Shown: positions 7,189-62,699 of the stretch, piece by piece | Layout: each line of letters opens with the position of its first letter | Position numbering within the stretch: position 1 is the first letter of the stretch | IMG/VR virus record: IMGVR_UViG_3300045125_000089 | Coordinates: 32,699-96,698 of that record | Strand: one strand, 5' to 3' | DNA length: 64,000 nt | Origin: a virus | Program-made: the position numbers and the translations under genes | The notes under the pieces: model-generated | What the model was told of the DNA's origin: nothing | Databases searched by the model: none | Seen by the model: the letters and a program-made list of their open reading frames with translations, nothing else

Positions 7189-7198
7189 ATAATAAACT

Positions 7199-7465: not shown

Positions 7466-7511
7466 ATGTTATTATTATAGTTTAAGGTTGTATATATAAA
7501 TATAATGATGG

Positions 7512-11230: not shown

Positions 11231-11243
11231 ACATTATTATATA

Positions 11244-12633
11244 TTAGGCCAATGATGGAAATCTTGCTGTTGTCCAATCAATAACAACATTATCAAAGTT
11301 ATAACTGCCAGATGGACCATAATTGTTTCTAGGATTTGACCATCCTGCTCTAAAATATGATATAGTAGTTGTTGCACTGGCCGCAAAAGAGCTTCCAACA
11401 AAACTGCCTGTAACATCATACAATTCTCTATAATATCCTACTCCGCCAACAAATAATATATCTAGTCTATAGTATGTATTTGGTAATGCTTGTATGCCCA
11501 TCAAATATTGCTCAAAGTTTGATGGTCTATTCATCGCTATTGAATCGGTTCCAAAATCGCCATATACTACAAAATTAAATCCACCAGTACTTGCAAATCG
11601 TGTATACATACTAATTGATACTCTGCTTGATGCTGGAAAATTATATTGAAACCACGTATTTATGCCACCGCCATATGCAGGATTTAATGTAATACTTCTG
11701 CTACCTCTTGTAGTTCTATTATTTACTTTATTTATTCTATTTTGAGCAAAGTTAGAACCGCTGAATATATACGCAAATCCGTTGCCAACAAGGGACCAGT
11801 CAGAGCCAGTTCTATTATCTGTGGCATCCAAAATTGTTGTATTTACAACATTGTCTGGTATTTCAAATGTAAGTACGCATCTGCATATACACTTGGCTCG
11901 CTCAAATATCTATCTCTGCCAAAATTGTATAAACTTTGTATTTGTGATGCATTTAGAGCAGTATTATATAAACTAGATATTCCGATATCTCCTTTGAAGT
12001 ATCTATTTGAACTTAATTTTTCTGCACCAATTTGTATTCTATCCGCGTTAAATTGATATGCACTACCAGACCTCGAACCCGTTCTTACTAATGTGCCGTC
12101 AAGATATAATGATAATCTATTATTTGATATATGCTTCAACGCCAGTCACCATATACCATTTATCATAAAAAATGATGATGAAATTGTATATTGTGTTGAC
12201 AGTCCATTGTAAAATGTATCTAGATTATAAACGGCAAATCAGTCATTGACCCAGATACTGTTGATGATGTTGTATTTGTTCGTATGCTAAATTGGTCTGC
12301 TGATGCACTCATTATGCAAAATAAACCAGCGTTCTGGTCCGATGCAAGTGTTTCTTTCAGCCTGTCTAAACCACAAATTTATTGTCTTAGATGATACACT
12401 TGATGATGGATTGGTATATGTTGTAGAAGATATATAATCGTCGATGGCGTCGAATGTAAAATAGCTTTACTTGATGTGGAATAACTTACTCCGATTTACT
12501 CAAGAAGCACTATGATTAAAAGGTGCAATAGGACTAAATATAGTAGTACTGCAGTTATATAAGACTTTGGTCCACTGGATCACAGTTTATATCAAACTGT
12601 CATTGATTACTTTTGAACATATAATGTTGCCAT
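11244..12633 (-). CDS. LamG-domain fibre protein with extra C-terminal beta domain, frame-broken
   Basis: Longer than the simple array units (about 460 codons). The N-terminal LamG-like part contains YISSTTYTNPSSSVSSKTI, then, after shifts, NNRLSLYLDGTLVRTGSR and FNADRIQIGAEKLSSNRYFK, ending ALNASQIQSLYNFGRDRY. One indel near 11845-11850 joins this to a clean 195-codon frame carrying a second domain: TGSDWSLVGNGFAYIFSG, MYTRFASTGGFNFVVYGDFG and YNFDNVVIDW up to the stop at 11244. This second part resembles a carbohydrate-binding beta-sandwich. The start at 12633 (MATLYVQK) was chosen because it precedes the first LamG-like segment; it is less certain than the end. Confidence 0.65.
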
Positions 12634-12661
12634 ATATATAACTATTGTATATATACACTTT

Positions 12662-13442
12662 TTATGTTAGACCAAATCTCTTCTTTTCTACGTTATAGTT
12701 TTGAAGAACTTCATGTTGGAAGACTAATGCTCTATTATACATTCGCACAGAAGCAACATTGCAATCTGCGTTAAGCGTATATGTGGAACCAATATTGCTG
12801 CCTATTGCTATTCGTAAATTATGGTTACTTGTGTATTTACACTAGGTGCAGAAAACGAGACTTGTTCCCAAAGATACGCCATTTATATATGTAGTTAAAG
12901 TATTTCCACTTCGCACAACGATGCATAAAACCAAGAATCAATAACAATATTTGTATTTGATAATCCTATTGAAGCAGTCAGGGCTGCGACGCATTCATAA
13001 TCGCCATTCCATATTTCATATCTTAGACTTGAAGTGACATACATAAAACATCGAGTGATATCCTCTATATACAAGTAATGCACTGGCAACTTCTGTAGCA
13101 TCGTGGGCTGTTGGGCTTGAGTTATTTATTTTGCCCAAATTTCTGTTGTATGATTTCCGTATAAATAAGTTTCCAGCACCAAAGCTCCAGCAACAGTAAT
13201 ATCTGCATATCCACCATTTTCTGCGGTGGGTGCAACAGTTCTTGAAAATTTTATAGATTTACTAGAGTTTCGTAAGAATAATATGTTGGATTAGACAAAG
13301 TAAAATTTCTTGCATTGCCACTTAAATCTATCCAAGTGGCACCACTGCCAGGATAACTCTTGGTATTTCTTGCATCCAAATACAATTGCAATCCACTTTG
13401 CACTACTCTGCCAAGACCTGCTGCTACTCCATATGCACTCAT
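12662..13442 (-). CDS. LamG/ConA-like lectin protein, array unit I, frame-broken
   Basis: The start at 13442 begins MSAYGVAAGLGRVVQSGLQ and continues YLDARNTKSYPGSGATWIDL and SGNARNFTLSNPTYYS in one clean 63-codon frame. It ends KKRFGLT at 12662 after several indels. Its N-terminal GVAAGLGR differs from the usual 'MSYNxGPK', so it is a divergent paralogue. The ATG overlaps the stop of unit J. Confidence 0.7.
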
Positions 13443-14155
13443 AATCCAAACCTTTTCTTTGTTATGTTATAATTGTTTAGTATTTCTATTGAAGATAATG
13501 TTCTGTTATAAACTGTAATTTGAGGTATATAACCTTGAAATGGAATATTGCCCACAGTGTTTGCCCAATGTCTACCAACTTGATAGTTGTTGGTTTTAGC
13601 AAAATTTCCACTGTTCCAAGTTATTGTACCAGAGTTTTGAAGCAAAGTTCCGTCCTTATAACAATAAATATTCAAGTGCTGCCCCGATTTTGATATTACA
13701 ATATATAGCCATTTATTTATATGCGTGCCAATGTCAAATATTCCACTTTCTAATACTCCGACTTGATTTACACCAGTAAAATTATACGGCGCAGCAACAG
13801 ACCCATTTCCAAATGTCATTGAATATGCATAATTTGTGGCAGGAGAAGGAGTTATTAAAAATTCCTTGCCATATTTGATTTGCGTTTAATTTGTATGCCC
13901 AAGCCGTTTGTGTAAAACTTCCCGTGAAAATATCTCCATTAATACTACCACTTACCACATCGTCAGTCCCGTCAAAGCTAATTGCTCCTTGATTTGTGCC
14001 GTTAAAAGTTGGACCATTAGTTAATGACCCGCTACGACTATTCCCGCTCAAATCTCTCCAAACACTACTACCACTAACAAAACTTTTCTATTACCCGCAT
14101 CGAGGTATAATACCAAACCATCCGTAACTAATCTGCCTCCTGAATTATAACTCAT
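13439..14155 (-). CDS. LamG/ConA-like lectin protein, array unit J, frame-broken
   Basis: Best preserved array member. The start at 14155 reads MSYNSGGRLVTDGLVLYLDA. A second frame carries SGNSRSGSLTNGPTFNGTNQ and AISFDGTDDVVSGSINGDIF. A third clean frame (13439-13819) has NKWLYIVISKSGQHLNIYCY, GNIPFQGYIPQITVYNRTLS and SIEILNNYNITKKRFGL. Together these give a full LamG/ConA fold of about 238 residues, and it serves as the reference for the other units. Confidence 0.8.
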
Positions 14156-14200
14156 ATGAACTTGTCTCCGGTGCGGCCAATCCCCAAATAACACATTGTT

Positions 14201-14419
14201 TTATATAGTTGATACTGTTTCGTTGCAATTTTCTTCATCACTCAAACCATCTGGAATATCAATGTATATACCATCATCAAATTGTTCCATAGTAAGAGTT
14301 CCATTATAAAACAATCCAATATTGTCTGACACAGTTGTTGCAAACGATGCAACTTCTGCATAACTAGAATTGGTTAGTTTTCTAGCAAAGTGTAAATACT
14401 TTGGTTCATCGTATATCAT
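14201..14419 (-). CDS. Small hypothetical protein (72 aa)
   Basis: An intact frame, MIDYEPKYLHFA-like start (MIYDEPKYLHFARKLTNSSY) to NCNETVSTI. It is acidic at the C-terminus (DDGIYIDIPDGLSDEEN) with no membrane segment or known motif. The start overlaps the stop of the fibrinogen-like gene by ATGA, so it is coupled to it. It could be an assembly partner or chaperone of that protein; this is inferred from coupling only. Confidence 0.6.
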   Translation of the reverse strand: MIYDEPKYLHFARKLTNSSYAEVASFATTVSDNIGLFYNGTLTMEQFDDGIYIDIPDGLSDEENCNETVSTI

Positions 14420-15209
14420 CTTATATAAATCTCCACTCTTGCTGCTCTATTAATGCCGGTAGTATCTTGACAACAACTGATTCTATCACCGGCAGAATAA
14501 CCTTGCCACGTTCCCGGCATCATACCTATTCCGCCACTAACATCGTCACTATCCATGTTTCCGTTGGGATATAATCCACCACCATTTTCATTCCATCCAA
14601 ATCCCCATCTAGTTCGTGCCGTACCTGGATTATTTCTATAGTTATATCCATAAAATCTAACATCTACTTGACTTGAAAATATACCACTTGCCCAACCAGA
14701 ATATGTTTTGGCGTCTCGTATAAAATATCTATCTACTGTATTAAAGAACGTAGTAGGCACAATTCTTGCGCCGCCATAAAAATCATTTTGCAACCAAGTC
14801 CATTGACCAGTGCCAGGTATACTACCACCTGTTCCCGGTTGTGATATCCGGCCAAATAGCAAGCATATCTTTTGCTCTATAATAATTCATAACATCAAAC
14901 TTTAGCGTCGCCGTTATTTCTATTTGTTGCAGAAAGAACTGAATGTATTTGATGCTGTCCAATAACTGGCAGTATATCCAAAAGTAAGTAGAACTTGTTG
15001 ATGCTTTAAGTGCAAGCATCCATCCGCCGCCATCATATGAGCCAGTCATTAAACAATATGTTTGTGTAGGTCCAACACCCTGGTAAATTTATCCAATATA
15101 CACCATTTGTTGAATTTGGATAATTATATAAAATTGATACGGCACTGAGTGCAGCCTTGTCTGCTGAACTGCCATCATTTCTATTTATTAGACCAAACCG
15201 GATTGACAT
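14416..15209 (-). CDS. Fibrinogen-like domain protein (putative receptor-binding), frame-broken
   Basis: The start at 15209 reads MSIRFGLINRNDGSSADKAA, then YPNSTNGVYWINLPG. After shifts come DGGGWMLALKASTSSTYF, FDVMNYYRAKDMLAIWPDI and a clean 148-codon C-terminal frame with WTWLQNDFYGGARIVPTTFF, VDRYFIRDAKTYSGWASGIF and GGIGMMPGTWQGYSAGDRIS, ending RVEIYIR. 'YDGGGWML' and the cysteine-containing end follow the fibrinogen C-terminal/ficolin-like pattern, a sugar-recognition fold. It sits inside the lectin array between units J and K, which supports an adhesin role. At least three indels are present. Confidence 0.7.
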
Positions 15210-15255
15210 AAACTTGTTATAATTTAGTTGTATATAACTATTGTATATATACACT

Positions 15256-15969
15256 TTATGTTAGGCCAAACTTCTTCTTTTCTAAGTTATAGTTTTGTAA
15301 TACTTCGGATGCGGATAGTGCTCGGTTGTATCTCAAAACATTAGCTATTCTTCCATTTAAATGGGCCGAATATACTGGGTATAATGGAGCACCGCCCATA
15401 TATAAAGTGCCCGCGCCGAAACTATTTGAAACATTTCCAGTAACAATTAAATTTCCATTTTGATATATTTTTGGGAAGAAACTCCATCTCGCACCAATAC
15501 AATATTATGATAGCGATTAACGGCATATTTATTCCAGACAACGCACAAGAACCGGTGGTATTTCCTCCGTATCTTCCAAACCAAATGAGATAAGGAGGAC
15601 CAGCGGCGTTGCCAGATGTGATAACAACAAATTCAATTGTATCAGGATTATTCCAAGAAAAAATTACCCTTCGCTCTATACAAATCAAGATTTCCAGATA
15701 TATTTCCATTAAAATAAATCCAACAACTTAGTGTAAAAAGCTCAGTACCAGATGGTGCAGCTTGTGCGGTCATATAGTCATTACTGCCGTCAAACACAAT
15801 ACTGCCCCATTATCACTATTATATGTCGGTCCATTTATCAAAGACCATATTGTTATTTCTACTAATATCAATCCGTGTACTGCCACTACTTCAACTCTTA
15901 AAGTTGCTGGCGTCTAAATATAATACTAATCCATCTTGTATTATTTTTACCTGGTGCTGCTGTGCTCAT
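15256..15969 (-). CDS. LamG/ConA-like lectin protein, array unit K, frame-broken
   Basis: The start at 15969 (MSTAAPGKN) is followed in shifted frames by GSIVFDGSNDYMTAQAAPSG, ELFTLSCWIYFNGNISGNLD and NPDTIEFVVITSGNAAGP, a typical LamG core. It ends as KKKFGLT at 15256, followed by the A/T-rich gap before the fibrinogen-like gene. The start is an ATGA overlap with unit L. Confidence 0.65.
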
Positions 15970-16685
15970 AATCCAAACCTTTTCTTTGTTTGCGTTATAG
16001 TTTTGAAGAATTTCAGCATCACTTAGACTTCTAAAATAAACTTGAGCCATTGCTATTCTACCTGTGTGAAAAAGAAGGAACGGTGTAATCCATGAGGGAA
16101 CGCTACCTAGCCTGAATAGTAAATTGGATTGAAAATCTAAACCATTCCATTGAGATATTGTTGCTGTACCTGTCGTGGATATCTGTGTTCCATTTAAATA
16201 CATTTTTATACTAGAACTCCTGGTAGCCACATTGTAGTAACCATATGCCACGTATTTAACGGCATAGTATTAGCACTCAATACAACTACATCTGCTCCTC
16301 CGTTGCCTTGGACAAATGTTTCTAATTTTGTTCCGATGTATAACTTAAACTGTATCTGTAATTTTGTGCGCCCGCTCTAGATTTACTAATCAGTGTTTGA
16401 GGTGATGCTGGCGCTGCTGTTTTATATGACCACACATTTTATTGTTAAATCATTTGTTCCTAAATCGAGAACGTCTCCGAGCAAAACATTGTCATCACTC
16501 CATCAAAAACAATACTTCCGCCATTAACACTGCTATGTTGGACCATTAGTTAATGTACCTGTTCTTTTGTTTTCAGTTAAATCCGTCCAAGTACTACTAC
16601 CACTAACATAACTTTTGTAATTGCTAGCATCCAAATATAATACCAATCCATTGCTTACTACTTTTGCTCCTGTATTATAACTCAT
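15966..16685 (-). CDS. LamG/ConA-like lectin protein, array unit L, frame-broken
   Basis: The start at 16685 reads MSYNTGAKVVSNGLVLYLDA then SNYKSYVSGSSTWTDLTENK. The C-terminal clean frame has SSIKMYLNGTQISTTG, FFHTGRIAMAQVYFRSLSDA and EILQNYNANKEKVWI. An indel in the last codons makes this frame run on into the start of unit K. Confidence 0.7.
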
Positions 16686-17442
16686 AATCCGACCTTTTCT
16701 TTGTTGCGTTATAGTTTTGTAATACTTCTGCTGCTGATAATGCTCGGTTGTACCAACAAACTTGATGCGATGTTTCCATTACCAGCCCTCGGATATGTGG
16801 ATGTGTCTTGATTTCCAGCCCGACTGCTAAAATCATTAGCCGTATTTGCGATGCTTGCGGGGCTAAGATCGTTACCTGTTTTGCATAGCGAAAGGACGCC
16901 ATTTGATAAAATATATTCAAGCTATCCAACGGTTTGGGAACAGGTGACACTTGTATTATACCGGAGCACCGTCAGATGCGTAAAGCCACCCTGCCGACTG
17001 GTCGCATCTGGAAAGTATCTTGGTATGTGAGTGCCACCGTCAGACCTAGATGCAAAATACCTTAACGTTCCACTATCGACTCTGAACAGAGATGAATATG
17101 ATTGGACCGCTCCGATCCGCCTTTATAAACCCCATAATGTGTTGAACGATCCCTAAACTACTTGCCTTTGCACCAGATGCATATGGTCCAAGGCACTTGG
17201 GTTACTTGCGTTTATTAAAGTGCAGGAGTTCCCAATGTTACATAATCATTTGTTCCATCAAAACTAAGCACACCACCATTAGCACTACTAAAGTCGGACC
17301 ATTGGTTAATGTTCCATTATTTCCATTCCTACTAACATCAGCCCAAGTACTGCTGCCGCTAACATAACTTTTATAATTACCAGCATCAAGGTATAATACC
17401 AATCCATTACTTACTATTTTTGGACTATAATTGTGTAGACAT
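16682..17442 (-). CDS. LamG/ConA-like lectin protein, array unit M, frame-broken
   Basis: First (promoter-proximal) unit of the array, starting at 17442 directly after the giant fibre gene (stop at 17448). It reads MSTQ, then YSPKIVSNGLVLYLDAGNYK, SYVSGSSTWADVSRNGNNGT and LTNGPT after a shift. The C-terminus contains WYNRALSAAEVLQNYNATKK. The centre is broken. The five-base gap to the fibre gene suggests cotranscription. Confidence 0.7.
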
Positions 17443-17447
17443 ATATT

Positions 17448-33221: not shown

Positions 33222-36200
33222 TTACTGATTAAAATTTATTTTTACTCCAAGCAACTGAGCATCTACAGCAAGTGTGTCTGATCCATCAGTTGCATTTCTA
33301 CTGATTTCATACACTACAGCATTTGTAGTGGAATTTGAGCCAGTAATTGTTACAGCAGGAGTGTTTGAAGAAATATGCATATCATTGGCTGCAAGCAATG
33401 TGTCTGTTACTGATTGTGCTGTACCAATTACCGTCGGTCCAATACGAGCCATCGTCTCGCAAAAGATCTTTGCACCTATTCTCCAAACTACCGCACCAGA
33501 AGAACCAGTTGCTGTCCAATAAAAATTTGCAGAGATTGTTCCAGAATTCCAATTTGACGGCATAATAGTCATTGCTTGAGCATACTCAATTGCACCCGCA
33601 TCAAAATCCAATGTATCATAATTGATTTTTGTTTGTTGTAGTTTCTAATGAATTTATTCCAGAACCACTTGTAGTTCTTGGTATCCACGCAGATGCAGGT
33701 ATCCATATTGTATTTGGAGTTAAAGCATAACTTGCACGATGCCAATATACTACCTGTTCCAATAAATGAACTACCAGATACAACAAGTGCATTAGAACCA
33801 AATTTGCCCATTACAATTCTGTCATCGCTAAATACTTCAAATATAGGCAATCCAGTAATGTCACTTACATTCATCAAACTGCCACTAAGGCTGTCTGTTA
33901 TACCAAACAATGTACCTGCACTTCCGATAAATGACACACTACCATCCTGCAATACTTCTAATCTTATAGAAGATGTTGCACTACCAGAGAAATACAAGTG
34001 TGGAATTTGCGGTAGAACAGAGACTTGAGCATCATATAGATGATGATGTTACCGTTCAAAAGTAACATTACTTGCTGTTGTAAATGTAAATCCCTGCCCG
34101 TTTGTAAATTGAGCACTGCTGGATATAGGGAGCCTCCAAGTGCCTATAAGATGCAGTAACCGCCCAGCTAGAAGTTCCTCTTAGTAGTGCGGACGAAGTC
34201 ATCAAAGATAGATGCCAGTTATTGCCATATCTCCGCTAACATCAAATACGAATGAAGTATTTAATTACTTTTCCTAATACCAACACTACCGCCAGTAATA
34301 ACAAACGCATTAGTATTATATAATACCTGCTACTATTTTATCATCACTGAAAACTTCAAATATTGGAAGGACCAAATATCATTAACACTCAATAAACTTC
34401 AGACGCAATGTCTGATATATCAAACAATGCTCCGTTGCTTCCCATGAACGATAATCCACCATTCTGTAATACTTCTAGAGATATACTTGAAGTTAAGCTG
34501 CCAGAAATACTATAGCTGCATTGCTACTAGTATTTGGAGAACGAAGCATCATATAAGAAGAAGTAACAGCGTCTGTAACACGAATTGAGCCAGAAACAGC
34601 TACAGAACCCGTCAATTGTAATGAGCCAGTAACTTAGTAGTGAGCCAGATACTTGTTGTCCTGTACTATCCATTGTTACTACCACGAACCCACTTGAGAA
34701 CAAATACAAGTTTTGCATTTGTTCCCACTCACCAACATTTTGAGCCCAGATAGCAGCGGCTTCATCGCCAATAGCACCTCCATTGTCGGCATACCATACA
34801 AGTCTTCCTAGATTATCATCCGCCTGAACGGCACCTCTACCTCCGACAGTTGTTGCTCTTGATTTAAAGAACCCGAATCGTGCACCATTTGCATTATTTG
34901 AATATCTTCCAATATATCCAAACGTCGCCGAAGTACTTAAAATTTGGAATATATCTCCCGCCGAAGTAAGAACGGTGTCTGGCGTATTTGTGCCCATTAC
35001 AAACTTTCCGTTTGAAGTAATAGAAACTGAACCTGTTACTCCTAACGACCCCGTAATAAACGTCGTTCCGTTTACATCCAACGTTGTAGTTGGAGAAGTA
35101 GTTCCGATACCAACCAAATTACTAGAATTGAATATGGAAGACTCCTGTTAATACTGAACCGCTATTGAACCTAGGTACATAATTTAATGACCCGGATGCT
35201 GCATTTGAATTTCCACTTGTTCCACTAGAACCGCTGCTACCACTTGTTCCGCTTGACCCACTTGTTCCCGCTTGAACCACTTGAACCACTTGTACCAGAT
35301 GTTCCGCTCGAGCCACTTCCACCACCACCTCCAGCAGCATTTAATGCATACGAAGTCAGTTAATGCCATTATGGCATAACTTGCTGTGCCTAATAAAGAA
35401 CCCGTGATACCAGACGATACATTTAATGTGAGCCAGTTACAGCTACACTTCCACTAACGTCTAATATAAATGCAAGATTTGGATTTGCTTTACCTATACC
35501 AATGTCACTACCAGTCACAACAAGAACGTTTTGATTGTATCCACCCATTACCACACGCTCGTCGCTAAATACTTCAAATATTGGCATACCAGACACATCG
35601 TTGACACTCATCAAACTTCCGCTCAATGAATCTGATATACCAAACAATGTTCCTGATGAACCAATAAATGATATTCCACCATCCTGTAATACTTCCAACC
35701 TAATACTTGAAGTCAAGCTACCAGAAAACACGATTGCAGAATTGCTACTTGTATTTGGAGATTTTAGCATCATATAAGATGCTGTTACAGAATCTGTGAT
35801 ACTTATTGAACCAGTAACAAAAAATGAACCAGTAATATCCAACGTGGTCGATGGATTTGTTTTTCCTATGCCAACAAAACTTCCAGAATTAAAGATAGAA
35901 GATTCTGTTAATACTGAACCACTGTTAAATCTTGCAACATAATTTAAAGAACCGGAAGCGGCCAATGAGTTCCCACTGGTTCCAGCAGAACCGCTTGAAC
36001 CGGATGAACCGCTGGTTCCACTGCTGCCCGAAGTTCCACTTGTTCCGCTTGAGCCGGATGTACCATTTGCACCACTTGTGCCGCTAGACCCAGAAGTACC
36101 AGATGTTCCGGAAGAACCACTTGTTCCAGTAGTTCCACTTGGACCCGATGTACCACTCGTACCACTACTTCCAGAAGTTCCACTTGTACCGCTTGAACCA

Positions 36201-39200
36201 GAAGTACCGTTTGCTCCACTTGTACCGCTAGAACCACTACCTCCGGCAGCATTCAATGCATAAGAAGCCAGTTAATGCATACGAAGAACTTAAAGCTGTA
36301 TTAGCATAACTTGCAGTGCCTAATATACTACCCGTACCAATAAATGTGCTACCAGAAACAGAAATGGCATATGCATTATACTCTCCAATGAACACTTGGT
36401 CATCACTAAATACTTCAAATATTGGAAATCCTGATATGTCATTTACCGCAAACAAACTTCCGCTTAAAGAATCTGCTACACCAAGCAATACACCATTTGA
36501 ACCAATGAATGCAACTGTACCATCCTGTAATACTTCAAGACGTATAGAAGATGTTGCACTACCAGAAAATACTATTGTTGCATTGCTGCTTGTATCTAGG
36601 AGACTTCAACATTATATACGATGAAGTAATAGAATCCGTTACACGCAGTGAACCGGTAATAAACATTGAACCAGTAATGTCACAACGTCGTTGTTGGTGT
36701 AGCTTGTTCCTATACCAACAAAACTACCGAGGTTGAATACAGAAGATTCTGTAAGCACATGAGCCGCTATTGAACCTTGCTACATAGTTTAGCTGAACCA
36801 GATGCAGCTATGGAATTGCCGCTGGTTCCAGACGATCCACTGCTTCCCGCGATTCCGGATGTTCCAGAAGAACCACTTGTTCCTGCCGTTCCGCTACTTC
36901 CAGATGTTCCGGCTGTGCCACTACTACCAGAAGAACCACTTGTACCCGCCGCACCAGATGTACCGCTTGATTCCACTTGTACCTGCTGTACCGCTTGTAC
37001 CGCTTGAGCCAGATGTACCACTCGTACCGTAGACCACTGAACCACTTGTTCCTGTGTACCACTTGAACCAGATGTACCTGCCGCTACCGCTTGTACCACT
37101 CGATCCGGATGTACCGGAAGATCCGCTTGTTCCACGCCGGATGTACCGCTTACACCAGATGATCCACTTGTACCTGTTGTACCGCTTGAACCAGATGTTC
37201 CGCTTGACCAGATGTTCCAGATGATCCGCTTGATCCTGGATGTACCGCTTGATCCGCTTGTACCATTCGTACCACTCTGACACCAGTCAGATCCGCTATG
37301 TACCTCTTGATACCGCTTGAATCCAGCCTGTTCCGGATGAACCTATGTTATCCACTTGTACCGCTTGTATCCGACTGTACCACTTAGAAGTTCCACTTGT
37401 ACCTGCTGATACCAGCTTGAATGGAGACCACTTGATCCATCGAATGTAAACCACTTGAACCAGTATGTACCGCTTGAACCGCTTGTACTACTCGTACCAC
37501 TTGACACCGGACAGTTCGACGCTTGTACCCGATGTACCGCTTGAACCAGATGTACCGCTTGACCCAGACGAACCACTTGTTCCACCACTATCCGGATGTA
37601 CCACTTGTATCCACTTGAACCAGATGTACCACTTGTACCAGAAGATACCACTTGTTCCTGTTGTACCGCTTGAACCAGATGTACCGCTTGATCCACTTGT
37701 ACCGCTGTACCACTTGCACCAGATGTTCCACTTGTACCAGTTGAACCACTTGTACCGGATGTACCAGTATCCACTTGAACCAGATGTACCGCTTGTACCA
37801 GATGTACCACTTGATCCCGCTGTATCCGGACTGTACCAGATGATCCGCTTGTACCACCCGTACCGCTTGACACCAGATGTACCTGCTAGTACCGGATGAG
37901 CCACTTGTTCCTGCTGTACCACTTGAACCAGATGTACCGCTTGTACCAGAAGAACCACTAGTTCCCGCTGTTCCGCTGCTACCAGATGAGCCGCTTGTTC
38001 CACCAGTTCCACTTGACCAGACTTGTACCTGTTGTACCGGATGAGCCACTTGTTCCTGCTGTACCACTTGAACCAGATTGTACCGTGTTGTACCAGAAGA
38101 ACCACTTGTTCCCGCTGTTCCGCTGCTACCAGATGAGCCGCTTGTTCCACCAGTTCCACTTGAACCAGATGTACCGCTTGTACCAGATGTAGCCACTTGT
38201 TCCTGCTGTACCACTTGAACCAGATGTACCGCTTGTACCAGAAGAACCACTAGTTCCCGCTGTTCCGCTGCTACCAGATGAACCGCTTGTTCCACCAGTT
38301 CCACTTGAGCCAGATGTACCTGCTTGTACCGGATGAGCCACTTGTTCCTGCTGTACCACTTGAACCAGATGTACCGCTTGTACCAGATGAACCACTAGTT
38401 CCCGCTGTTCCGCTACTACCAGATGAACCGCTTGTTCCACCAGTTCCACTTGTGCCAGATGTACCCGTAGTACCGGATGAGCCGCTTGTTCCATGCTGTA
38501 CCACTTGAACCAGATGTACCGGTTGTACCAGAAGAACCACTAGTTCCCGCTGTTCCGCTACTTCCAGATGAGCCGCTTGTTCCACCAGTTCCACTTGAGC
38601 CAGATGTACCTGTAGTACCGGATGAGCCACTTGTTCCCGCTGTACCACTTGAACCAGATGTACCTGACGTACCAGATGAGCCGCTTGTACCACTTCAGTA
38701 CCCGATGCACCGCTTGTACCAGAATAACTCAACGCATATGACGCCGTAACTGCCCAACTAGATGTGCCATACAAAGAAGCAGTTAATCCGCCTTGTATGC
38801 CAACGCTACCAGTAATAATCAACATTGACGCAGATGCAAATAATGAACCCGTAAATTCTATAACATCTGCGTTGGTTGAGATTATTGTTTGTCCAGTAGG
38901 TCCAAATATAAATTGAAGGCAGAACCAGATACGGTCAATGAACCAGTTATATAAACACTGCCAGAAACGTAATTCAATCTGAATCTTGATACATACTGGG
39001 AACATACAAATTTGTTACAGTAATGCTAGATGCGGTTATTCCACCAGATATACCTAAACTACCTGTTAAATTAAACGAACCACTTAAAGATACATTTCCG
39101 ATATTATTTGAGTCTGTAGTAATGGCGGAAATAATCTTATCTTCAGTACTGCCGGACTTTCTTAAAAATACACGACCATCTGGTACATTTATGGCAAATT

Positions 39201-39276
39201 GTCCAGTACCAAATGAAGATGTTGTAGGTATTGAACCTGTTGTTAAACTGCGTAAATGTATGATTTTATCTGCCAT
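33222..39276 (-). CDS. Large modular tail fibre protein (about 2,000 aa), heavily frame-broken
   Basis: The start at 39276 is clean: [40 protein letters not shown] and [20 protein letters not shown]. It then reads [20 protein letters not shown] and [17 protein letters not shown] before a GTSGSSG shaft (about 36790-38700, very indel-rich). After this it alternates shafts with an adhesin module ('[21 protein letters not shown]', '[20 protein letters not shown]', '[10 protein letters not shown]') at 36313-36600, 35440-35760, 34290-34530 and 33800-33997. A distinct domain at 34527-35117 has [20 protein letters not shown] and [20 protein letters not shown]. The C-terminus (33222-33611) has [20 protein letters not shown] and [20 protein letters not shown]. 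No stop/start pair was seen inside, so I treat it as one gene; it could be two. Confidence 0.65.
36790..38710 (-). repeat. Collagen-like GTSGSSG shaft repeat, indel-rich
   Basis: About 1.9 kb of GTS/GSS/GTA codons. Blocks ending TTCCACCAGTTCCACTTG recur near 38000, 38150, 38290, 38440 and 38590, a period of about 150 bases. Many blocks carry one- or two-base insertions, which destroy the frame every 50-200 bases. Smaller shafts of the same type lie at about 35950-36240 and 35210-35310. Confidence 0.8.
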
Positions 39277-39315
39277 TTGTTATAAGTATGTAAAGTAGGT
39301 TATGTTTTAGCATCA

Positions 39316-39323
39316 TATTTATA
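39316..39323 (-). promoter_or_regulatory. Candidate T4-type late promoter
   Basis: On the minus strand this reads TATAAATA, the T4 late promoter core, in the gap between the stop at 39326 and the fibre start at 39276. This leaves a leader of about 30-40 bases. It is a sequence match only; A/T-rich gaps make chance matches likely. Confidence 0.35.
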
Positions 39324-39325
39324 TA

Positions 39326-41867
39326 TTATAAACCATATATCGCTTTTATAGCATTATAATTTTGTTTTACTTCTTGTGCCGAAAGTGTTCTGAAATACAC
39401 TTGAACTAATGATATGTTGCCTTGGTGCAGACGTATTGGAGAACGTATAAACCCACCTCCGACACAAAGTGGATTCAGCGAGGCACTAAAATAAACGCCA
39501 TCTGCTGAACTTATATCGACTGAGCCACTGGTTGGTTCAACTTCTCCATTAAAATATAATTTTATGTCTGAACTTCTATCCATCACAGTCGTAGTCATAA
39601 TCCATGTATTTAGCGGTAGTGTCGTAGATGTACCGTATACTGGAAAATAGTAGAGGAGTTGAACCTTGGCCGTTTTGTAAAAATGCGAACATTTTATTTC
39701 CCAAATAACCGAGTATATGAAGTAAATCTCACAGCAGTACCAAAATGATATCTTTCCGCACCATCATTGTTAGTTATTTTGACCATACATTTATGGTTAC
39801 GTCGTTTTGTTCCCAATGGCAGAGGATATCCAGTTCCTATACGAACCAGTCATCAACGCCATCAAAAGCAATGCTGCCACCATTGGCACTGCTATAAATT
39901 GGTCCATTCGCCAACAAACCTGTATTATTGGTATTTCCAGTCAAATCAAACCAGTTGCTACTGCCACTAACATAACTATATGGATTAGCAGCATCAAGAT
40001 GCAGAACAAGACCATCTCTTACAATGTCAGACGGACCTTTTCTTACAAAAAAACTACCCGCATTATTTACATTTCTTAATTTAAACGTGGTAGTATTTGT
40101 GCTAAAGACGTAACGTTAGTGGCATATCAATAAAAACCTCCATCGATATAACTTGCTGTAAGAGCATATGATGATGTACCAAGTAAAGTCCTGTAATTGA
40201 ATTGGCTACAATAGAATTTACATTTATGTTGATTCCAGCTTAAGCAGGCTTTCCGCTTTGAGTGAATATGAACTGGTTGTATTTGGATTTCCGTTTATCC
40301 AGTTGTGCACCCTTGGATATATCAACGCTTGACCATCCGCTCGGAGATGTTATATGTTACATCACTTAAATCGTCAAGTTTTGCGGTGCTGACAGTGCTT
40401 CCTGCTCCCGCTCCCGCCGATATTTCTGTAGCAATCCTGCACCAATTATGTCGAGCGTCGGAGCCGGTCAAGCTGGTACTGTTGCGGCTCCTTTTGCTAC
40501 TACATAACCAATGAACGCTGTAAACCCTGCGAAGTTGCATCACCTTCAACAAACGGGTCTGGTTGGTACAGTTTGTATTGCCTCTGGCAATGTAGTTGAT
40601 ATGTTGTTTGTCCGTAATATGACGTACAATTGTGTTGTTTACTGGATACGAAAATAACTCGTTGGATAGCATAATCGTTAGCCTCCGACCGTTTGCAGTG
40701 TTCCGCTACCGTCATCATATTTTGCTTGGATCTATGATCTGTGTAATAAACTTCCCGCCATTTGCGTCAAAATATACACCAGAACCAGAACGATACATTC
40801 TTACTATGCTTGCCCGTAGACCACTGCCGGGGTGCTATATTCTGAAGGAGATTTCCGCGACCACTTGAGTAAAATGCTCCGTGTGCAAACGTAGTGTTAC
40901 CTGAACTTACTGACATTTTCAAGTGTGCCCGTCTGCGGAGTATTGACTATATCCACGCAAGTTCTTAATGGACCAAACGCATCAACGAATGTATTTAGTT
41001 GACTTGTATTCCTTGTGAGCCACGCAGTACTGAAACAGTTTCGCCAAAGAAGGCGGATATATTGGCATAGTCGTAATGTCCAACCGCACCCAGAGGAATT
41101 TTGGTATGATATTCTTGTGACAGTAAACGGCCTAGATTGCTGTCGAATGTGCTCCGTTGCCGTCAATATAGATCCATGTTACTTGGCTGAGTGTTGATGC
41201 CAGCGATTGGTCTGTGATATATTTCCCCACTGAACATATGCTACATCTGGGTCTATTTCTCGAGCCTCAGTTGTTGCATTATGATCTCCACAATAATACC
41301 AGATCCTGAACTCACATATACTATGACTTCCGCTCCAAGTGACAATGCCGCCATATAAGCAGTCCTGTTTCTAATAACGCCCTGTACCCAATCACACAAT
41401 TTGCACTTTGATCCGTGATGTCTTATCCACAAATCATCACCAGGATGAAATGCCGATTTGCTGGCAAACATAGTAGTTTCCGTATGGTGCATTCGGATCC
41501 AGCGAACCAGTTCAATCTTAACCATCCTTGAACCGTCTGGTTGCCGATAAATGTATTTGATCCCAGTTGTAGCAAATATGGTAGAGTCCAACCCATCAAG
41601 CAAGTTGCTATTATTTGCATAAGAAGCAGTCCCAGCATTCGGAGCCCAACTTGCACTAACTGCCCAACTTGACGTACCAAACAAACAACCAGTTATACCA
41701 TCAACAACAAGACCTTTTGATATATATGCAGAACCGCTTACTGCAAGATGCGATGATGTGGAAATGTACCTACTTGAAGATGACTGCCGGAAATATACAC
41801 ATCTTCCTTGAAACTGGAAGTTTGTAAGTGAAATTAACCCTTTGCGTGCTACAAATTCGTTAGACAT
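39326..41867 (-). CDS. Modular fibre protein with C-terminal LamG domain, heavily frame-broken
   Basis: The start at 41867 reads MSNEFVARKGLISLTNFQFQ, then SGSAYISKGLVVDGITG, GTSSWAVSASWAPNAGTASY and NLLDGLDSTIFATTG. The middle (40300-41500) carries degraded pieces such as GVFYSSGRGNLLQNIAPGSG-like sequence, YRSGSGVYFDANGGKFITQI and DLSDVTYNISERM. The C-terminal LamG part has VRDGLVLHLDAANPYSYVSG, ANGPIYSSANGGSIAFDGVD and the clean end frame SSDIKLYFNGEVEPTSGSVD, NISLVQVYFRTLSAQEVKQN and YNAIKAIYGL. No start codon occurs in frame before the LamG part, so it appears fused to the fibre. About 840 residues before indel correction. Confidence 0.6.
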
Positions 41868-49783: not shown

Positions 49784-51408
49784 TTAAACTTCGTTGAGGT
49801 TGCCAATGACGATTTTGCCGTAAAATTCGGGCCTGATCATCTTTTTGGCATAACGTGTCATCACGCCACGGCGTGGTGTGAAGTTCACTGGGTCGTACAC
49901 CAATGGTGTCTGAATCAGTGGGATGTATGGAGCGTAATACAGCGCCGGTTTCTACGAAGTTGCTTCCACGGAAACCAACCAACATAACGTTGTCGGTCAT
50001 CATTGCATGGGTTCTTGTAAACGGTCCAGCGGTTGCTTAGAGCACCAACCTTGGCAACACCCATTGCGAACTTGGCTTGGTCGCCGTCCGTGTTGGTTGT
50101 GGCCCAGGAATGCTTTCGATGATGGTAGCAACGTCTGGGCTGCAAACCAGGAAGTTTGCACCACCACGCAGGGTCAACTGGTGGATCTTGTTGCTGACCT
50201 TCTGAATCTTGTTACCCAATGTCTGGAGCCAGGTGCTCTTGACATAGGCGGTACGGTTAGCAGCGGTGTCTGCGAACAAGCCGGTTGCGGCGTTGTATTC
50301 AGAACCGATACGAGCGGACCAGAATTCAGTTGTTACTGCTGGAGCATTGACGAGCAACATGTCACAAGTTTCTAGGTCGATTTCCATCGATACGTACTCA
50401 GATAGAAGAGCAGTTAGCTCTGCTTCTGCGTCAATCGAGTGGTAAGCGTTCAAGTCCTGCGCCAATTCTGGTGTCCAGACGGCCTTTAGCTTACGGGTCT
50501 TAGCAACGATAGCTTCAGACTTCAGCTCTAGGTTTACTTCTGGAATACCAACGTCGGCGTATAGACCTGAAGTGCCAGCGCCCGCTGAGGCTGCTGTGCT
50601 TCGAAGTCGCCACTGGCTATTGTCGGCTGGTTGCTTGTGATAAGCGACCAATGCATTTCCGCTGATTCCAGAACCAGAAACGCGAAGATTACGCTATTGC
50701 CGGAAACAGTGGTGAATGCTGGGTAGAAATCAACGATACCAGAACCAGAAACGGTGAACGCACGAGCGCCATTGGCGTCGAAGTTTGTTCCGCTCAAGGA
50801 GACGGTAACAGACTGAATCTTGCCAGCAGCTAGCGAAGCGCTTAGGTCGGTGTTGAAGTTGATGTCTTCCCATGCTGGACCATTTGCTGTGCTGGTAGGG
50901 CCGAGTTGTAGCAGCAACGGTTGTTGTCTGGTCATTGATGGTATAACCGAAACGGCCTTGGCCATATGACCATTGACTGCGCTGTCGGTTGAACCTAGCT
51001 TGGTTCCTGTACCACCGAATAGCGAGTTACCGCTGAAAGATGGCTTGCCTGCTGGTCGGTACCATACTTGAAGTCTAGATAGAATACTAGACCAGATGGT
51101 AGATTCATTGGCTGTACGCTAACGAATTCCTTGGCAGCAATTTCAGCGAAAACACGGCGAACTAGTGGCAATGCAACACCGGCCCATTGTTCTGAGCTTG
51201 TGGTTGTACCAGTACAGAGTAGCTTCGTCGATTAGTTGTTTAGCCTGATTTTCCAGAAGAATGGACATGTGTGACTTTTCCATGTCGCCCTCTGATGCCT
51301 TCTAGAAGACCAGTCTTTTCCCACTTGGACACAAGTCCACGGGTTTCGGAGCATGGGCTTAACCATTGGATTGGTTGTCTCGGTTAGTAGTGTTTTGATA
51401 TCTGACAT
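49784..51408 (-). CDS. Major capsid protein (T4 gp23-like), frame-broken
   Basis: Forms the head shell. The start at 51408 (MSDIKTLLTETTNPMVKPML) has AAAGGA upstream. Then come SILLENQAKQLIDEA-type sequence, VALPLVRRVFAEIAAKEFVS and VQPMNLPSGLVFYLDFKYG, all diagnostic of gp23. A middle insertion-type region follows (FTVSGSGIVDFYPAFTTVSG). The clean frame 50037-50651 has LKSEAIVAKTRKLKAVWTPE, LAQDLNAYHSIDAEAELTAL and TWLQTLGNKIQKVSNKIHQL. It ends TDNVMLVGFRGSNF and YAKKMIRPEFYGKIVIGNLN. About 540 residues against 521 in T4. Several indels, mainly in the N-terminal third and near 49930-50010. It is G+C-richer than its surroundings. The prohead protease should trim its N-terminus; the exact site was not identified. 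Confidence 0.85.
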
Positions 51409-51440
51409 AATTTTTCCTTTATTAAGGTTTGATTGTTGAT

Positions 51441-56773: not shown

Positions 56774-57649
56774 TTATTTGATATTTTTCAACTCTTTGAT
56801 AAGTTCATAACTCAACATTAGTGCCATGATTTGATTTTCCTTTACCAGAGTTCCTTTTGTAATCTTATCCAACTGATTTAGTGTTTCATCCAGTTTGATT
56901 TTTACAACTTCATTATTTACTTTGCTCTTTAGCTCATCTATCTGCTTTCTTACTTCAGGTACTTCAGCATTGATATATTCACGCAAAGAGTTGGTATTGC
57001 TTACATTATTGATATATTCACGTATAAGAACCTTTTGCTTTTCATCAAGGCTCTTGTATTTTTCATTGAACGAGTCAACCAGCAACTTATAAGCAAGCAA
57101 TCTAACATCTTCATTTTGCTGTTGATATACCTTGATAAGGTCTTTCTTTTCTTCTTCAGATATGACTCTTGTTGGTGTTTTGGCAGCAGCAATATTTTCA
57201 ACAATGCAGTTTCTGGCTTTGAACATTTCGCGTGGGTCGCTTTCTACTTCATTGACATTATCTTCAAATACCTTGTATATGCTTGCCAGCAACTTATAGT
57301 TTGAAATGCTGCCCTTTAGAAAATCATCAAGTGGATAATATTGCTTGATTTCCTTGATAAGTTCATACTTTTGAAGATTCAATGAACGCTCATTTAGTTT
57401 CTTTCGTGTACGCAATACAGTATCCAATAATCTATCAGCAGAAGCTTGGTCTTTTGTCTTTTCTTCTATAATGACGCGATATAATGCATTTTCTCTGCCC
57501 AGTTCAGTAGACTCTGAGAAATATTTACGTAAAATATTATTGGCCTTTGAGTCATCTTTTCCATTTAGTATATCGGCGGTGACTTGGCGAACAAGTAGTT
57601 CAAATAATATACCCGCATTCTTATACTTGGAGTGTTTCAGCTTCTTCAT
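56774..57649 (-). CDS. Conserved helical head-module protein (291 aa)
   Basis: A clean frame from MKKLKHSKYKNAGILFELLV to LMLSYELIKELKNIK. It is almost all helical. Landmarks are RQVTADILNGKDDSKANNIL, RKYFSESTELGRENALYRVI, TVLRTRKKLNERSLNLQKYE, YYPLDDFLKGSISNYKLLAS and DEKQKVLIREYINNVSNTNS. No catalytic motif was found. The gene recurs between portal and protease genes in aquatic T4-like phages, so it is probably a prohead core or internal head protein. A TATAAATA-like sequence lies at 57660-57667 on the minus strand, too close to the start for a normal leader. Confidence 0.75.
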   Translation of the reverse strand: MKKLKHSKYKNAGILFELLVRQVTADILNGKDDSKANNILRKYFSESTELGRENALYRVIIEEKTKDQASADRLLDTVLRTRKKLNERSLNLQKYELIKEIKQYYPLDDFLKGSISNYKLLASIYKVFEDNVNEVESDPREMFKARNCIVENIAAAKTPTRVISEEEKKDLIKVYQQQNEDVRLLAYKLLVDSFNEKYKSLDEKQKVLIREYINNVSNTNSLREYINAEVPEVRKQIDELKSKVNNEVVKIKLDETLNQLDKITKGTLVKENQIMALMLSYELIKELKNIK

Positions 57650-57697
57650 ATATTTTTATTATTTATAAATATGTTATTACGTGATAAAAACTCCATT

Positions 57698-60612
57698 TTA
57701 CTGCTGTTTGTCTTCTTCTATTAGGTTTGACTCATCCAATATAGACTTTTTTCAGTTATAACTTGCTTGTGCTTATTATTATATCGTGTTTTCAATGCAG
57801 TTTTTATATTCTTCAAATCTTCATCCATTGATAATGCACCGCCTCTGTATATATGACGTGTAGAACGGTCTGTTCTTGATTTTTCTTTATTTTCTTTGTT
57901 GCCAAGCGGGTCTTCACCAAAAATCTTGGTATGAGACGATGTATATTTTTCCTTGTTTCCTGTTTGGTCTCTGTTTCCGCGTTCACGGTCTTTGCGGGTT
58001 TCTTCTTCAAGCGGAGGCAATCCGCCCTCTTCTCCGCCACCGCCACCCGCCTCTTCGCCACCTCCGCCGCCAAGGTCTCCACCTCCGCCACCAAGGTCTG
58101 ACGGACCTTCTTCTCCCATCTTTTGGTTGCTTGCAGCAGGGTCATTGCCTTCGGAACTAATCTGTTCCATACGCCACGCCTGCTTTTTGTCCTTGATTAC
58201 ATCCAGTTGTACTTCTTCAACTTCATCTTCAGACAAGTTGAATACTTGGTTGTATATCCACTTCTTGCTAAACTATGTTTGCTTTCTATCATATCTGACG
58301 CAAGGCTGATTTTGTTAGACCATATTTCCAACTTTTCTTGTTCAAATATTGTGCTTGGGTTGCTTAGTTCAAGTTCAAAATCAACAAGCGAAGCATCCTG
58401 ATAGCCCTGCACATACAAATGTACCACAGCGATTTTAGTTAGTTCAGATACAATGATGCGTTGTATTCTGCCTATAGTGCGTGAAAATCTAACATCTTCA
58501 GCAGCAAGTGTTGCCTTACCAGACAATCCTTCTTCATATCCAAGAAATGCCTTTGGTATTTTTAGTGCCGCCATCATCTTGTTGCGAATATATTCCAAAT
58601 CGTCAATGCCAGTAAAATCCATACTTGAGCAATGTATCTATGTTTGTTCCACTATCACTGCCACGAACTGGTAGATAAAAGTCTTCTACCATATTGTTCA
58701 AGTTGAAACGCAGATTATAATCACCAGTACGTTCATCAATATATGGAACTTTCTTTACTTGGCTGATGATTTTCTGCATTGCCGTATCAATATCAGCGGG
58801 AGGAATATTTCCAACATCTACTTTGAATATACGCTTTTCTGGTGCACGCATGATGCGATGAATAAGCATTGCGTCTTCCATCAAACTTAGTTGCTTCCAT
58901 ACACGGCGTGCTGGTTCAATCATGCTTTTACCATATGGCAAAAAGTTACTATCACTTAGCAGGCGAAAATGTGCGATTTCAAAGTTTTCATATTCCATAC
59001 CACCACCCATACCATCGTGTTGATACTTTACATAGTTGATATTTTGAGGATCACTTTGCCTTCTATGCGTGTGATTTCATATGGACTGATGGGATGTACA
59101 ACAAACACACCATATTCTGGCGAGATTTCAAGACGTAGGAAAAAATCGCCATACTTGCACATATTACGTGTCCAACTCCACATATTGAACTCAACATTCA
59201 AGATGTCATAGAACAAGTTTTCCAAAATCTTCTTTATGTTTTCATTCTTGCTGCGTATGGTCAATACTTGACCAAACTCACTTGGCACCAGACATTCGTC
59301 ACTATATATGTCTAGTGCAGAAGCGATGATAGTCCATATCCATAGTATTGTGAACGAAGCACGAATCCGTAGCGAAATTTTGATACTTTTCCACCGTTAC
59401 GTCATATACTTCGCTCTCCGATGCATTCAATTGATACAATCGTGTGGTTTAACGTACTTTCAATTTCATTTTTGAAAGTCTTCCAAGATATGTTGTTGGA
59501 TTGAAGACGGTTTTCAAATGTTGAAAAATCACACCCAACATCATTAATCAACTCTATTTTGTCAACTTTCCATTATTTTTGTAGAACTCGATTGCTGCTA
59601 CTCTAAACTCATCTATGGACAATCCGTCACGATAGTTTCGATTCCTTGTTCCAGACTGTTTCGTTTTCAAACGACGCTTTAATGATTTTTTTGGACGCTT
59701 CACGTTTGATTTTTCTGAATGCACTTTTTACCATAAAATGGATTATTTTTTCCAACTCTTTTACCATTCCATCTGTGGATATTACGCTTTTTATTTCCCT
59801 CCCCACGGCCAACAATTGCTTCTTCTGTTCTCCGGCCCCATATCTTCTCATTGTTTATTCTCGCATGATATGCACGATGTTCTGCGTCATTCATAATGAC
59901 CAAATTATCTGGAAGATTGTTCTTTTTGTTGAAATCTTTGTGGTGAACGACCTCTTTATCACTCAATTTTCTTCAAACTGCTCTGCGACAATTCTGTGCT
60001 CGGATTGCCATCCTTTGCTAAAATTGTATAAACTTCTATATCCGTTGTCATAAAAGTCTTTTTGATAGAACGGCATAAACTGACTTCTCCTACCAATTCT
60101 TCTAGTTTTTTGTATTCTCCATTTCTCATCAAAAATGGATGCCCAGCGCTACCGATTACATATTGACCCGTCCAATGTAACTTCCAACATTTACGTGCTC
60201 CACCCTCTTCTTTCTTGGATGATATGCTTTTCCAAGTTTAATTGAATCGGTCTCGTGGTCATAAGAAAATACATAGAATCTTTCGGAGAATTTTGTATTT
60301 CTGTCAGTTCCTTTGATCGTAGGGCGGGTTCCGTCTGGTAAAGGAATAAATCAGTCCGCATCAACGCAGTCATAATCTCTAAACAGTTCAAGACGGCTGG
60401 CTTGATAAGCCATGCTCATGTCACGATTATGAAGATTGAATGTGCTGCTGCGTAAGCGATTGAAACGGTCTCTTAAGACTGTTTCTGTCTGTAGCATATT
60501 GTATTTCATCTGTGTCAACAACCTTTAGTTTCTTGCCGCCCACATTACGAACAATAACGTCCGTAGAAAACATTTTCTTTAGTCTGCTAAATAAGTCTTT
60601 TGTTTCTGCCAT
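57698..60612 (-). CDS. Portal protein (T4 gp20-like), interrupted by an intein, frame-broken
   Basis: Forms the DNA entry ring of the head. The start at 60612 reads MAETKDLFSRLKKMFSTDVI, VRNVGGKKLKVVDTDEIQYA and MSMAYQASRLELFRDYD. The intein (59347-60368) follows, then the extein resumes TMDMD, TIIASALDIYSDECLVPSEF, FYDILNVEFNMWSWTRNMCK, YGDFFLRLEISPEYGVFVVH, HFRLLSDSNFLPYGKSMIEP, AMLIHRIMRAPEKRIFKVDV, FYLPVRGSDSGTNID and KATLAAEDVRFSRTIGRIQR. All are gp20 landmarks. The C-terminus has an unusual GGGGG/EE-rich tail (58000-58110) and ends ESNLIEEDKQQ. Extein length is about 630 residues against 524 in T4. Indels occur near 58240, 58620, 59030 and the extein junction. Confidence 0.85.
59347..60368 (-). 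other. Intein with HNH homing endonuclease inside the portal gene
   Basis: A self-splicing protein element. Cys1 is codon 60366-60368 (CVDAD, then IPLPDGTRPTIKG), directly after extein RDYD. A splicing block reads YVIGSAGHPFLMRNGEYKKL. The endonuclease has SDKEVVHHKDFNKKNNLPDN and LVIMNDAEHRAYHAR (HNH: HH...N...H). The C-terminal splicing blocks read REVYDVTVEKYQNFATDSCF then VHN, the last Asn at 59347-59349, followed by Thr+1 of the extein. N-extein RDYD plus C-extein TMDMD restores the uninterrupted portal sequence. About 340 residues with several indels, so activity cannot be judged from this copy. Confidence 0.85.
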
Positions 60613-60675
60613 AGTCTGTATATATATGAGCGCCTATAGTATAAATATATACCTATAGTATTTTTATAAAATATA

Positions 60676-62324
60676 TTATCGCAATAGCCAAGTTAGGTCT
60701 TCTGGCTTGGCACCGTGCATACCTAGGTCCACCAACGTGCATTTGCCACGGGTTGTTATATACACCGAATGGATTTATGTTTTTTCCGCCATTCAGCGTC
60801 TTCATATTGTTTATCATTTGTTCTGGCGATGCTGCACCTATTCTGTCTATTATTGTGCGTGTAACGCTGTCTGCTTCTTTTCTAAGACGTAATGCTACAT
60901 CTCTTATCCATAAAGATATGCCTATTGCCATAACAAGGTCATCATTATATCCATCCATTGCTTCTGCTTTGGCAGATACTGCTCCGCTTTTCCATATAAA
61001 AACTTGTAGCTCTTCTATAAGCCGCTTGCTGTGTATAATAACTTCTTTGTTTCTAAAATAACTTTCAAGTTTTGATATTAGCAATGGTCTGGACTTGTGT
61101 GATGTAGTAAAGCCGGTGTCATCTTGCGTTCTTCTCTGTTCAACTTGTTGGTCATTTGATTTTCTACATCAACATATTGCAGGTCAGATGAACTATAAAA
61201 AAGATTTGGATAGTTGGCGTCAAGCACTTCTTGTATAACTGCCCAGCCAACATTGGCATTTTCCACAACAAGCAATGCATTGTTATATTCTGTTGCCATT
61301 GTCATAAGTGCTCGGGCATATTCTTTTGTTGGCAACTTGCCTTTATATTCAGCAACTTGCTCCATTGTTTCTATTTCAAGTATCTGAGCAGCACTATAGT
61401 CGCTGGCATCGCCACGAGCAACGTCAGCAGACACCATATATGATTTGCCTGCTTGCGGATATTTGAATATCCAATATCCTTTATCTACACCTCTTTTTCC
61501 AAAGGCTCGCAAACGTGCGTTTTTTCATACCATTGCAATATGGGAATATCTATGACGGTATTGCCAGATGTGCTAAACTCGCAATCACATTCTTGTGCGG
61601 CACCACGTTCGCCAGACAACTTGGTTTGTTCATCTCTCCATTTTTGGTCTCGTTCTGGATGCAGATGCCAAGGCAAACTGATGCGGTTCATATTATTCAA
61701 CCCAGCCTCAGACTCCATCCACATTTTATGAAACCAGTTGCCAACACCATTTGGCGTAGATAGTATGATTGCTTTACCGCCCGTTGATAATGTATATTGA
61801 GCAGACAGCCATATTTCTTCAATATTGTCAATAAATGCGGCTTCGTCAACCACGAGCAAAGACAACGCACTTGAACGGCCAGATGTGCCCGCACTGCTCG
61901 CCGCCTTGATTTCAGAACCATTCTTTAGTTTCAAAGACAGTCTATTGTCTTCAACTGCTAGAACTTTTAGCCAACTTGGTAGATTATCATTTGCAAATCG
62001 TACTTTGGTTACAATCGCTTTTGATGTTTCTTGTGTAATACTCAAGCACAATATCTGCTTGTCTGTATAAAACGTCATAAGCCATAGAGCATATCCAGAT
62101 ACAAGAGTTGTAATACCCATTTGGCGACTCTTTAGAATAATATTCTGGTCGTTATGTACAAAGTCTTCTAACGCTTTATCTTGGAATGGATATGTAAGAA
62201 ATGGCAAAGTTCCTCTGGTAGGATGCTGTATCTTTACATACTTCTTCATAAAGTATATAGGATCCTTTAGACACTTGGCATACTCCAGTTTTATAACATC
62301 TTTCAGGTTTTGTGTAGTAGCCAT
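60676..62324 (-). CDS. Terminase large subunit (T4 gp17-like), three frame breaks
   Basis: DNA-packaging motor with ATPase and nuclease domains. The start at 62324 is MATTQNLKDVIKLEYAKCLK. Motifs: Walker A SRQMGITT (residues 66-73), Walker B LLVVDEAAF (156-164), coupling motif LSTPNG (189-193 region). After a slip near 61500 come YMVSADVARGDASDYSAAQI (first nuclease Asp), ALLVVENANVGWAVIQEV (Glu) and, past a second slip near 61085, DGYNDDLVMAIGISLW (final Asp). A third slip near 60700 gives the end GMHGAKPEDLTWLLR. About 549 residues against 610 in T4. Residues needed for both activities are present. No small terminase subunit was recognised in the window. Confidence 0.9.
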
Positions 62325-62327
62325 ATT

Positions 62328-62699
62328 TTAGTTGTATTTGTATCTGCTATATAATGGCGAAGAATATCCTATATGCACAATGTCTGGTATTTTATCATCC
62401 ACATATTTTCTAAACATTTTGGCAGAAATATCCAATATCTTACCTTCTATTTCCAACCAATCGTGCGGCACTTCATAATCATCATCATAATGTGTAATAA
62501 ACTTACTTGCATATGGTCCATCCAACACAAACAATCCTTCAATCTTGTTTGATTTTATGCCATATTTGAGCAGTTCTTTGCATAGTTCATTTGTCATAGG
62601 AGCACAATATCCTTGTGGATTAGTTGGATATTTGCTTTGTATACGCTGACACAATGCAGATATAAGGTCGTTTTGTGATATAGCATCTGCTAAGTCCAT
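62328..62699 (-). CDS. Small transglutaminase-like protein (123 aa)
   Basis: An intact frame, MDLADAISQNDLISALCQRI to PLYSRYKYN. The layout YCAPMTNELCKELLKYGI (Cys32), EVPHDWLEIEGKILDIS (His79, Asp90) is the Cys-His-Asp order of papain-fold transglutaminase-like proteins. There the strand after His carries 'W.E..G...D'. If right it could act as a peptidase, acyltransferase or amide-modifying enzyme; substrate unknown. The fold suggestion comes from the motif spacing alone. It ends four bases before the terminase start, so it is cotranscribed with it. Confidence 0.55.
   Translation of the reverse strand: MDLADAISQNDLISALCQRIQSKYPTNPQGYCAPMTNELCKELLKYGIKSNKIEGLFVLDGPYASKFITHYDDDYEVPHDWLEIEGKILDISAKMFRKYVDDKIPDIVHIGYSSPLYSRYKYN

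Follow-up and report, generated by a model that had tools for sequence, protein, structure and literature searches.

The portal locus and its insert

The window analysed here, a stretch of 64,000 nucleotides from IMG/VR record IMGVR_UViG_3300045125_000089 (record length 96,698 bases), comes from an uncultivated T4-like phage. As judged by tblastn with two cultivated relatives, Flavobacterium phage immuto and Microcystis phage Mel-JY01, its minus strand carries, in this order, genes for the terminase large subunit, the portal protein, a conserved hypothetical protein, the prohead protease and the major capsid protein. The portal is of the T4 type (PF07230, Portal_T4; E = 4e-31), and this match agrees with the order of the terminase, portal, protease and capsid (gp23) genes in upholding the gp20 identity proposed by the initial annotation. 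The structural model of the portal is of low confidence (pLDDT 60); T4 gp20 was nevertheless ranked first in a Foldseek search. The portal sequence is interrupted by an insert (Table 1) at a position which a weak profile alignment places near residue 80 of T4 gp20. Elsewhere in the window (5837-17444 and 33719-40037), several stretches repeatedly match the same tail-fibre or structural proteins of immuto and, from these matches, appear to form a paralogous family of structural or fibre genes.

Table 1. Features of the portal locus and two non-canonical inteins of other loci (positions in the window unless a locus is named)
Feature	Position	Strand	Remarks
Terminase large subunit, upstream neighbour	60653..62324	-	Frame-broken; tblastn
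Portal (gp20) N-extein, MAETKDLFSRLKKMFSTDVIVRN...ELFRDYD	60369..60612	-	One frame change
Putative intein, about 341 residues, internal HNH endonuclease	59347..60368	-	About five frame changes and one in-frame TGA
Cys1, N-terminal splice junction nucleophile, after ELFRDYD	60366..60368	-	Three-frame reading
Splicing block B, GSAGHPFLMRNG	60118..60153	-	SxxH form of TxxH; reading and alignment
HNH endonuclease core, EVVHHKDFNKKNNLPDNLVIMNDAEHRAYH	59865..59954	-	EVVHHKDFN...NLVIMN...HRAYH
NUMOD3-like DNA-binding motif, WNGKRVGKNNPFYGKK	59724..59771	-	Direct reading
C-terminal splicing blocks F and G, EVYDVTVEKYQNFATDSCFVHN	59347..59412	-	TIGR01443, E = 5e-7
Thr+1, first C-extein residue, nucleophile for ligation	59344..59346	-	Followed by MDMD
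Portal (gp20) C-extein	57721..59346	-	Several frame changes
Pro-first TRNM/C intein	L016:4231-5151
Pro-first TRNM/C intein	L106:3873-5012

The initial annotation had read in the insert a Cys1 after RDYD, a splicing block, an HNH core and a terminal His-Asn followed by Thr; all of these were recovered on the minus strand, and the boundaries that it had given were exact. The insert sequence, joined from three frames, was matched above curated cut-offs by Intein_splicing (Pfam; E = 5e-9) and HNH_3 (E = 1.5e-5; 25.0 bits for a cut-off of 24.8), and TIGR01443 (intein C-terminus) also exceeded its own cut-off. A profile of the intact relatives described below matched the raw DNA of the record directly, with no joining of frames (E = 4.5e-52). 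The match of this segment to inteins is thus far beyond chance. Block B has the SxxH form (SAGH; TDNH in relatives L039 and L042), and the C-terminus is HN followed by T, a form expected of class 1 at this end. A point against the intein reading is that the His of block F is replaced by Gln. The HNH region gives a weak match, with the family profile, to the HNH homing endonuclease I-HmuI (PDB 1u3e; E = 0.004); I-HmuI is intron-encoded, whereas the HNH domain found here lies inside an intein. No second intein was found elsewhere in the 96,698-base record by searches that included the profile of intact relatives.

On these sequence features, the insert is very probably a cis-splicing intein of class 1 (Cys1) that carries an HNH homing endonuclease and is placed between Asp and Thr in the RDYD/TMDMD stretch of a T4-type portal, and it almost certainly excises itself from the portal protein. 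The initial annotation had stated that the extein halves join into unbroken portal sequence: the register is indeed kept across the junction, but frame changes interrupt both of the halves.

Frame changes in the window copy

In comparison with the intact relative L007, the portal and intein of the window fall into ten pieces in three frames. About five of the frame changes lie inside the intein or at its edge, and the exteins have about four. There is also an in-frame stop (TGA, 60351-60353) within the intein. The intein reading frame, broken by indels in the window, is open through both exteins in intact relatives. Neighbouring genes are similarly affected: two or three frame changes are needed to read the terminase, and at least two or three to read the capsid gene (49787-51417), so that indels seem to affect the entire record. 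Sequencing error is favoured because the capsid, terminase and portal are also broken and because homopolymer density is higher in the intein (13.7 per kb) than in its neighbours (4.2-5.5 per kb), i.e. by a factor of about 2.5-3. The stop and the frame changes of the intein are therefore most likely long-read indel errors.

Alternatively, these lesions could be real, in which case splicing would have been lost and the record would represent a dead or defective genome. The in-frame TGA is compatible with such decay, as is the frame-change rate, which at about 5 per kb in the intein somewhat exceeds the value of about 2 per kb in the flanking genes. However, the surplus of frame changes is in keeping with the higher homopolymer content, the capsid, terminase and portal exteins are broken too, the HNH and splicing residues are otherwise intact, and a phage would not survive an insert in an essential gene that could not be spliced out; we regard decay as improbable.

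Intact relatives at the same site

Scanning of IMG/VR with the intein as query yielded 55 loci, and further loci came from a second scan with the family alignment. Fifty-two distinct intact relatives are inserted at exactly the same site (RDYD/TMD). The closest relatives that span the full intein share about 52-53% identity with that of the window. Absence of Cys1 or of the terminal His-Asn from a corrected sequence had been named by the initial annotation as evidence against an intein; Cys1 and the terminal Asn are each kept in 52/52 relatives. The +1 residue is Thr in 49 occupied portals and Ser in 3, and the penultimate residue is more variable (His 20, Ser 13, Lys 11, Gly 4, Ala 2 and Arg 2; n = 52). 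Among aligned relatives, Intein_splicing was found in 23/23, HNH_3 in 23/23 and NUMOD3 in 22/23 (that of the first member being below the curated cut-off), and the HNH motif is kept in all 49 relatives longer than 300 residues. Shortened forms of 263, 189 and 147 residues also occupy the RDYD/T site, the last two being mini-inteins. An AlphaFold model of the L007 intein (pLDDT 81) matches known inteins of the PDB in Foldseek searches (PI-PfuI, E = 2.6e-9; Npu DnaB, TM-score 0.84 by target length), so that the insert of the relatives is predicted to have a Hint fold.

No close relative was found among cultivated phages (INPHARED), where matches covering at least 30% of the query were only 27-32% identical, and a scan of bacterial genomes returned only distant inteins (26-34% identical over at least 100 residues). 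Of several huge-phage records of 735 kb, LR756501 was read as a possible carrier of a portal intein and rejected; its intein sits in a ribonucleotide-reductase-like gene instead.

Endonucleases with HNH_3 and NUMOD3 are frequent in phage introns and also occur as free-standing genes, and an insert of this kind in the portal could in principle be a group I intron or a free-standing HNH gene, removed at the RNA level or not at all. Yet in the 52 relatives the insert keeps the reading frame where it meets either extein and has intein blocks at each end, and the L007 model has the intein fold; in addition, no Rfam match, and with it no catalytic RNA core of a group I intron, was obtained in window positions 57000-62500 at E = 0.1. 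An intron or free-standing gene is thus very unlikely.

Empty sites and the +1 residue

A scan with the portal as query gave 80 loci, nearly all without an intein at the RDYD/T site. In all, 56 distinct relatives have an empty site; the portals of Microcystis phage Mel-JY01 and of Flavobacterium phages immuto are likewise intein-free. Six pairs of occupied and empty portals show a clean insertion, with extein bases neither gained nor lost at the junction. A comparison with intein-free gp20 homologues had been proposed as a check, and the segment appearing in them as a normal domain as a refutation; most related portals lack it and the flanking DNA of the closest empty-site sisters is 81-94% identical, which makes it extremely improbable that we are dealing with a normal domain of this portal family and no insertion, a reading that no observation favoured. 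The site was also said to lie in a highly conserved extein stretch, and this is borne out by 18 diverse portals, in which the flanking Asp-Tyr, Met-Asp and next Asp are invariant.

The residue that follows the site in the 56 empty portals is T (17), S (12), A (12), V (10), E (2), N (1), I (1) or M (1). Thr or Ser is thus found in 29/56 empty portals versus 52/52 occupied ones (Fisher P = 4e-10, weakened by the relatedness of the sequences), and the difference persists among portals ending in RDYD (P = 4e-7, with the same reservation). The direction of this bias is the one that splicing chemistry requires. Five empty portals (L070, L071, L072, L073 and L078) have Val at +1 (RDYD/VMDMD) and would be expected to be unable to support splicing; this may possibly reflect escape from the intein, or mere drift.

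Mobility and selection

Traces of recent movement are seen at the DNA level in the relatives. The inteins of L030 and L032 are 97-100% identical for flanks of 72-90%, and those of L006 and L009 are 96-100% identical for flanks of 75-84%; conversely, L175 and L185 have exteins that are 99% identical and inteins that are only 64% identical. Of the 44 inteins longer than 300 residues, only 7 have the same nearest neighbour whether intein or extein sequences are compared. A portal tree was built from a short alignment, with the +1 column removed, and leaves many forks unresolved; at least 9 switches between occupied and empty states fall on its branches with good support, and the best tree has 16. 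Median dN/dS is 0.09 for the whole intein and 0.14 for its endonuclease part, many pairs being saturated at synonymous sites; both appear to be under purifying selection. These comparisons show that the element moves and is maintained. The HNH domain is the presumed cutting agent, from the class of enzyme to which it belongs. Between L035 and L036, identity is about 100% across the intein and its right flank but only 70-72% in the left flank, a contrast that would correspond to a recombination breakpoint where the left flank meets the intein.

Further inteins in T4-type portals

Inteins occur at about ten sites in T4-type portals of uncultivated phages: RDYD/T, PILS/S, ALDIY/D, YADE/C, TRNM/C, PYGK/S, WKQL/T, RIMR/S, TLPGA/ and GK/S. 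The multi-site result followed from the downstream DNA of L005, which, when used as a portal query, matched a second intein instead of a portal. The approximately nine sites other than RDYD/T are represented in L005, L008, L012, L016, L017, L019, L024, L028, L037, L039, L042, L046, L054, L057, L096, L106, L112 and the huge-phage record LR756508 (L063). A single portal gene can have up to three inteins, and three large inserts are present in one gene in L005/L008, L019/L052, L057 and LR756508. The T4-type portal thus appears to be a multi-site intein target.

Judging from their sequences, the PYGK/S and RIMR/S inteins look like LAGLIDADG elements (one match being just under the cut-off) and those at PILS/S and TRNM/C like HNH ones. 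Several TRNM/C inteins (Table 1; also L019, L052, L053 and L096) have Pro in place of Cys1 and a Cys in block F (VYC). They are probably non-canonical and recall class 2/3 inteins; inspection by eye revealed neither the Trp nor the Thr of the class 3 motif in them. Outside portals, previously unremarked inteins with HNH-like inserts were noticed in Bacillus phage SP-15 (L066:2626-4290) and in Streptococcus phage vB_SagM-GXN1 (L067), in genes that are annotated as hypothetical or are unannotated.

Discussion

Portal inteins as such are already known, since six have been reported in the portal protein of cluster C1 mycobacteriophages (PORT inteins; Kelley et al. 2016, PMC5050341). Those belong to the mycobacteriophage orthologous group POG1190, whereas the present ones are in T4-type gp20 (PF07230) of uncultivated T4-related phages, a distinction based on the description of the host proteins. 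Inteins of phage terminase, ribonucleotide reductase and PhoH, including those of the T4-related Campylobacter phage IBB_35 (PMC3322345), also reside in core phage genes, but in other genes and at other sites. The Ssp and Npu DnaB and Npu DnaE inteins (PDB 1mi8, 4o1r and 2keq) share the Hint fold and the C-terminal splicing blocks with the portal intein, but they have another host protein and are short, with no room for an endonuclease. No earlier report of inteins in T4-type gp20 was found in the literature searched, which was mainly open-access, and the T4-type portal is apparently a new home for them. The initial annotation had called it a less usual one: this fits the searchable literature, although the RDYD/T site is repeatedly occupied in uncultivated phages.

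The portal would be made as a precursor with the intein inside. The residues present and the fold suggest that Cys1 and Thr+1 would perform the two acyl shifts and that the C-terminal Asn would cyclise, after which the spliced portal could assemble. In a co-infected cell, the HNH domain, aided by the NUMOD3-like motif and C-terminal helices, would cut the uninterrupted portal gene of the other phage, and repair of the cut gene would copy the intein in. Because the portal starts head formation, it is conceivable that splicing works as a switch which sets the time or the conditions of head assembly, the inteins then not being mere parasites. We consider this unlikely, albeit such a switch, if real, would explain why T4-type portals gather inteins at so many sites and in such numbers per gene.

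There are practical consequences: automated annotation can split such portals into pieces, and protein engineering can draw on a large set of related, intact inteins whose +1 residue is Thr or Ser. The list of intein homes is extended by the T4-type portal, whose gene codes for a structural part of the virion and commonly serves as a marker for T4-like phages. Occupancy, empty sites, mobility and mini-inteins together appear to make up a textbook homing cycle, of which all stages (empty, full, shortened and mini) are displayed at one site, and the DNA bears marks of recent spread through natural populations.
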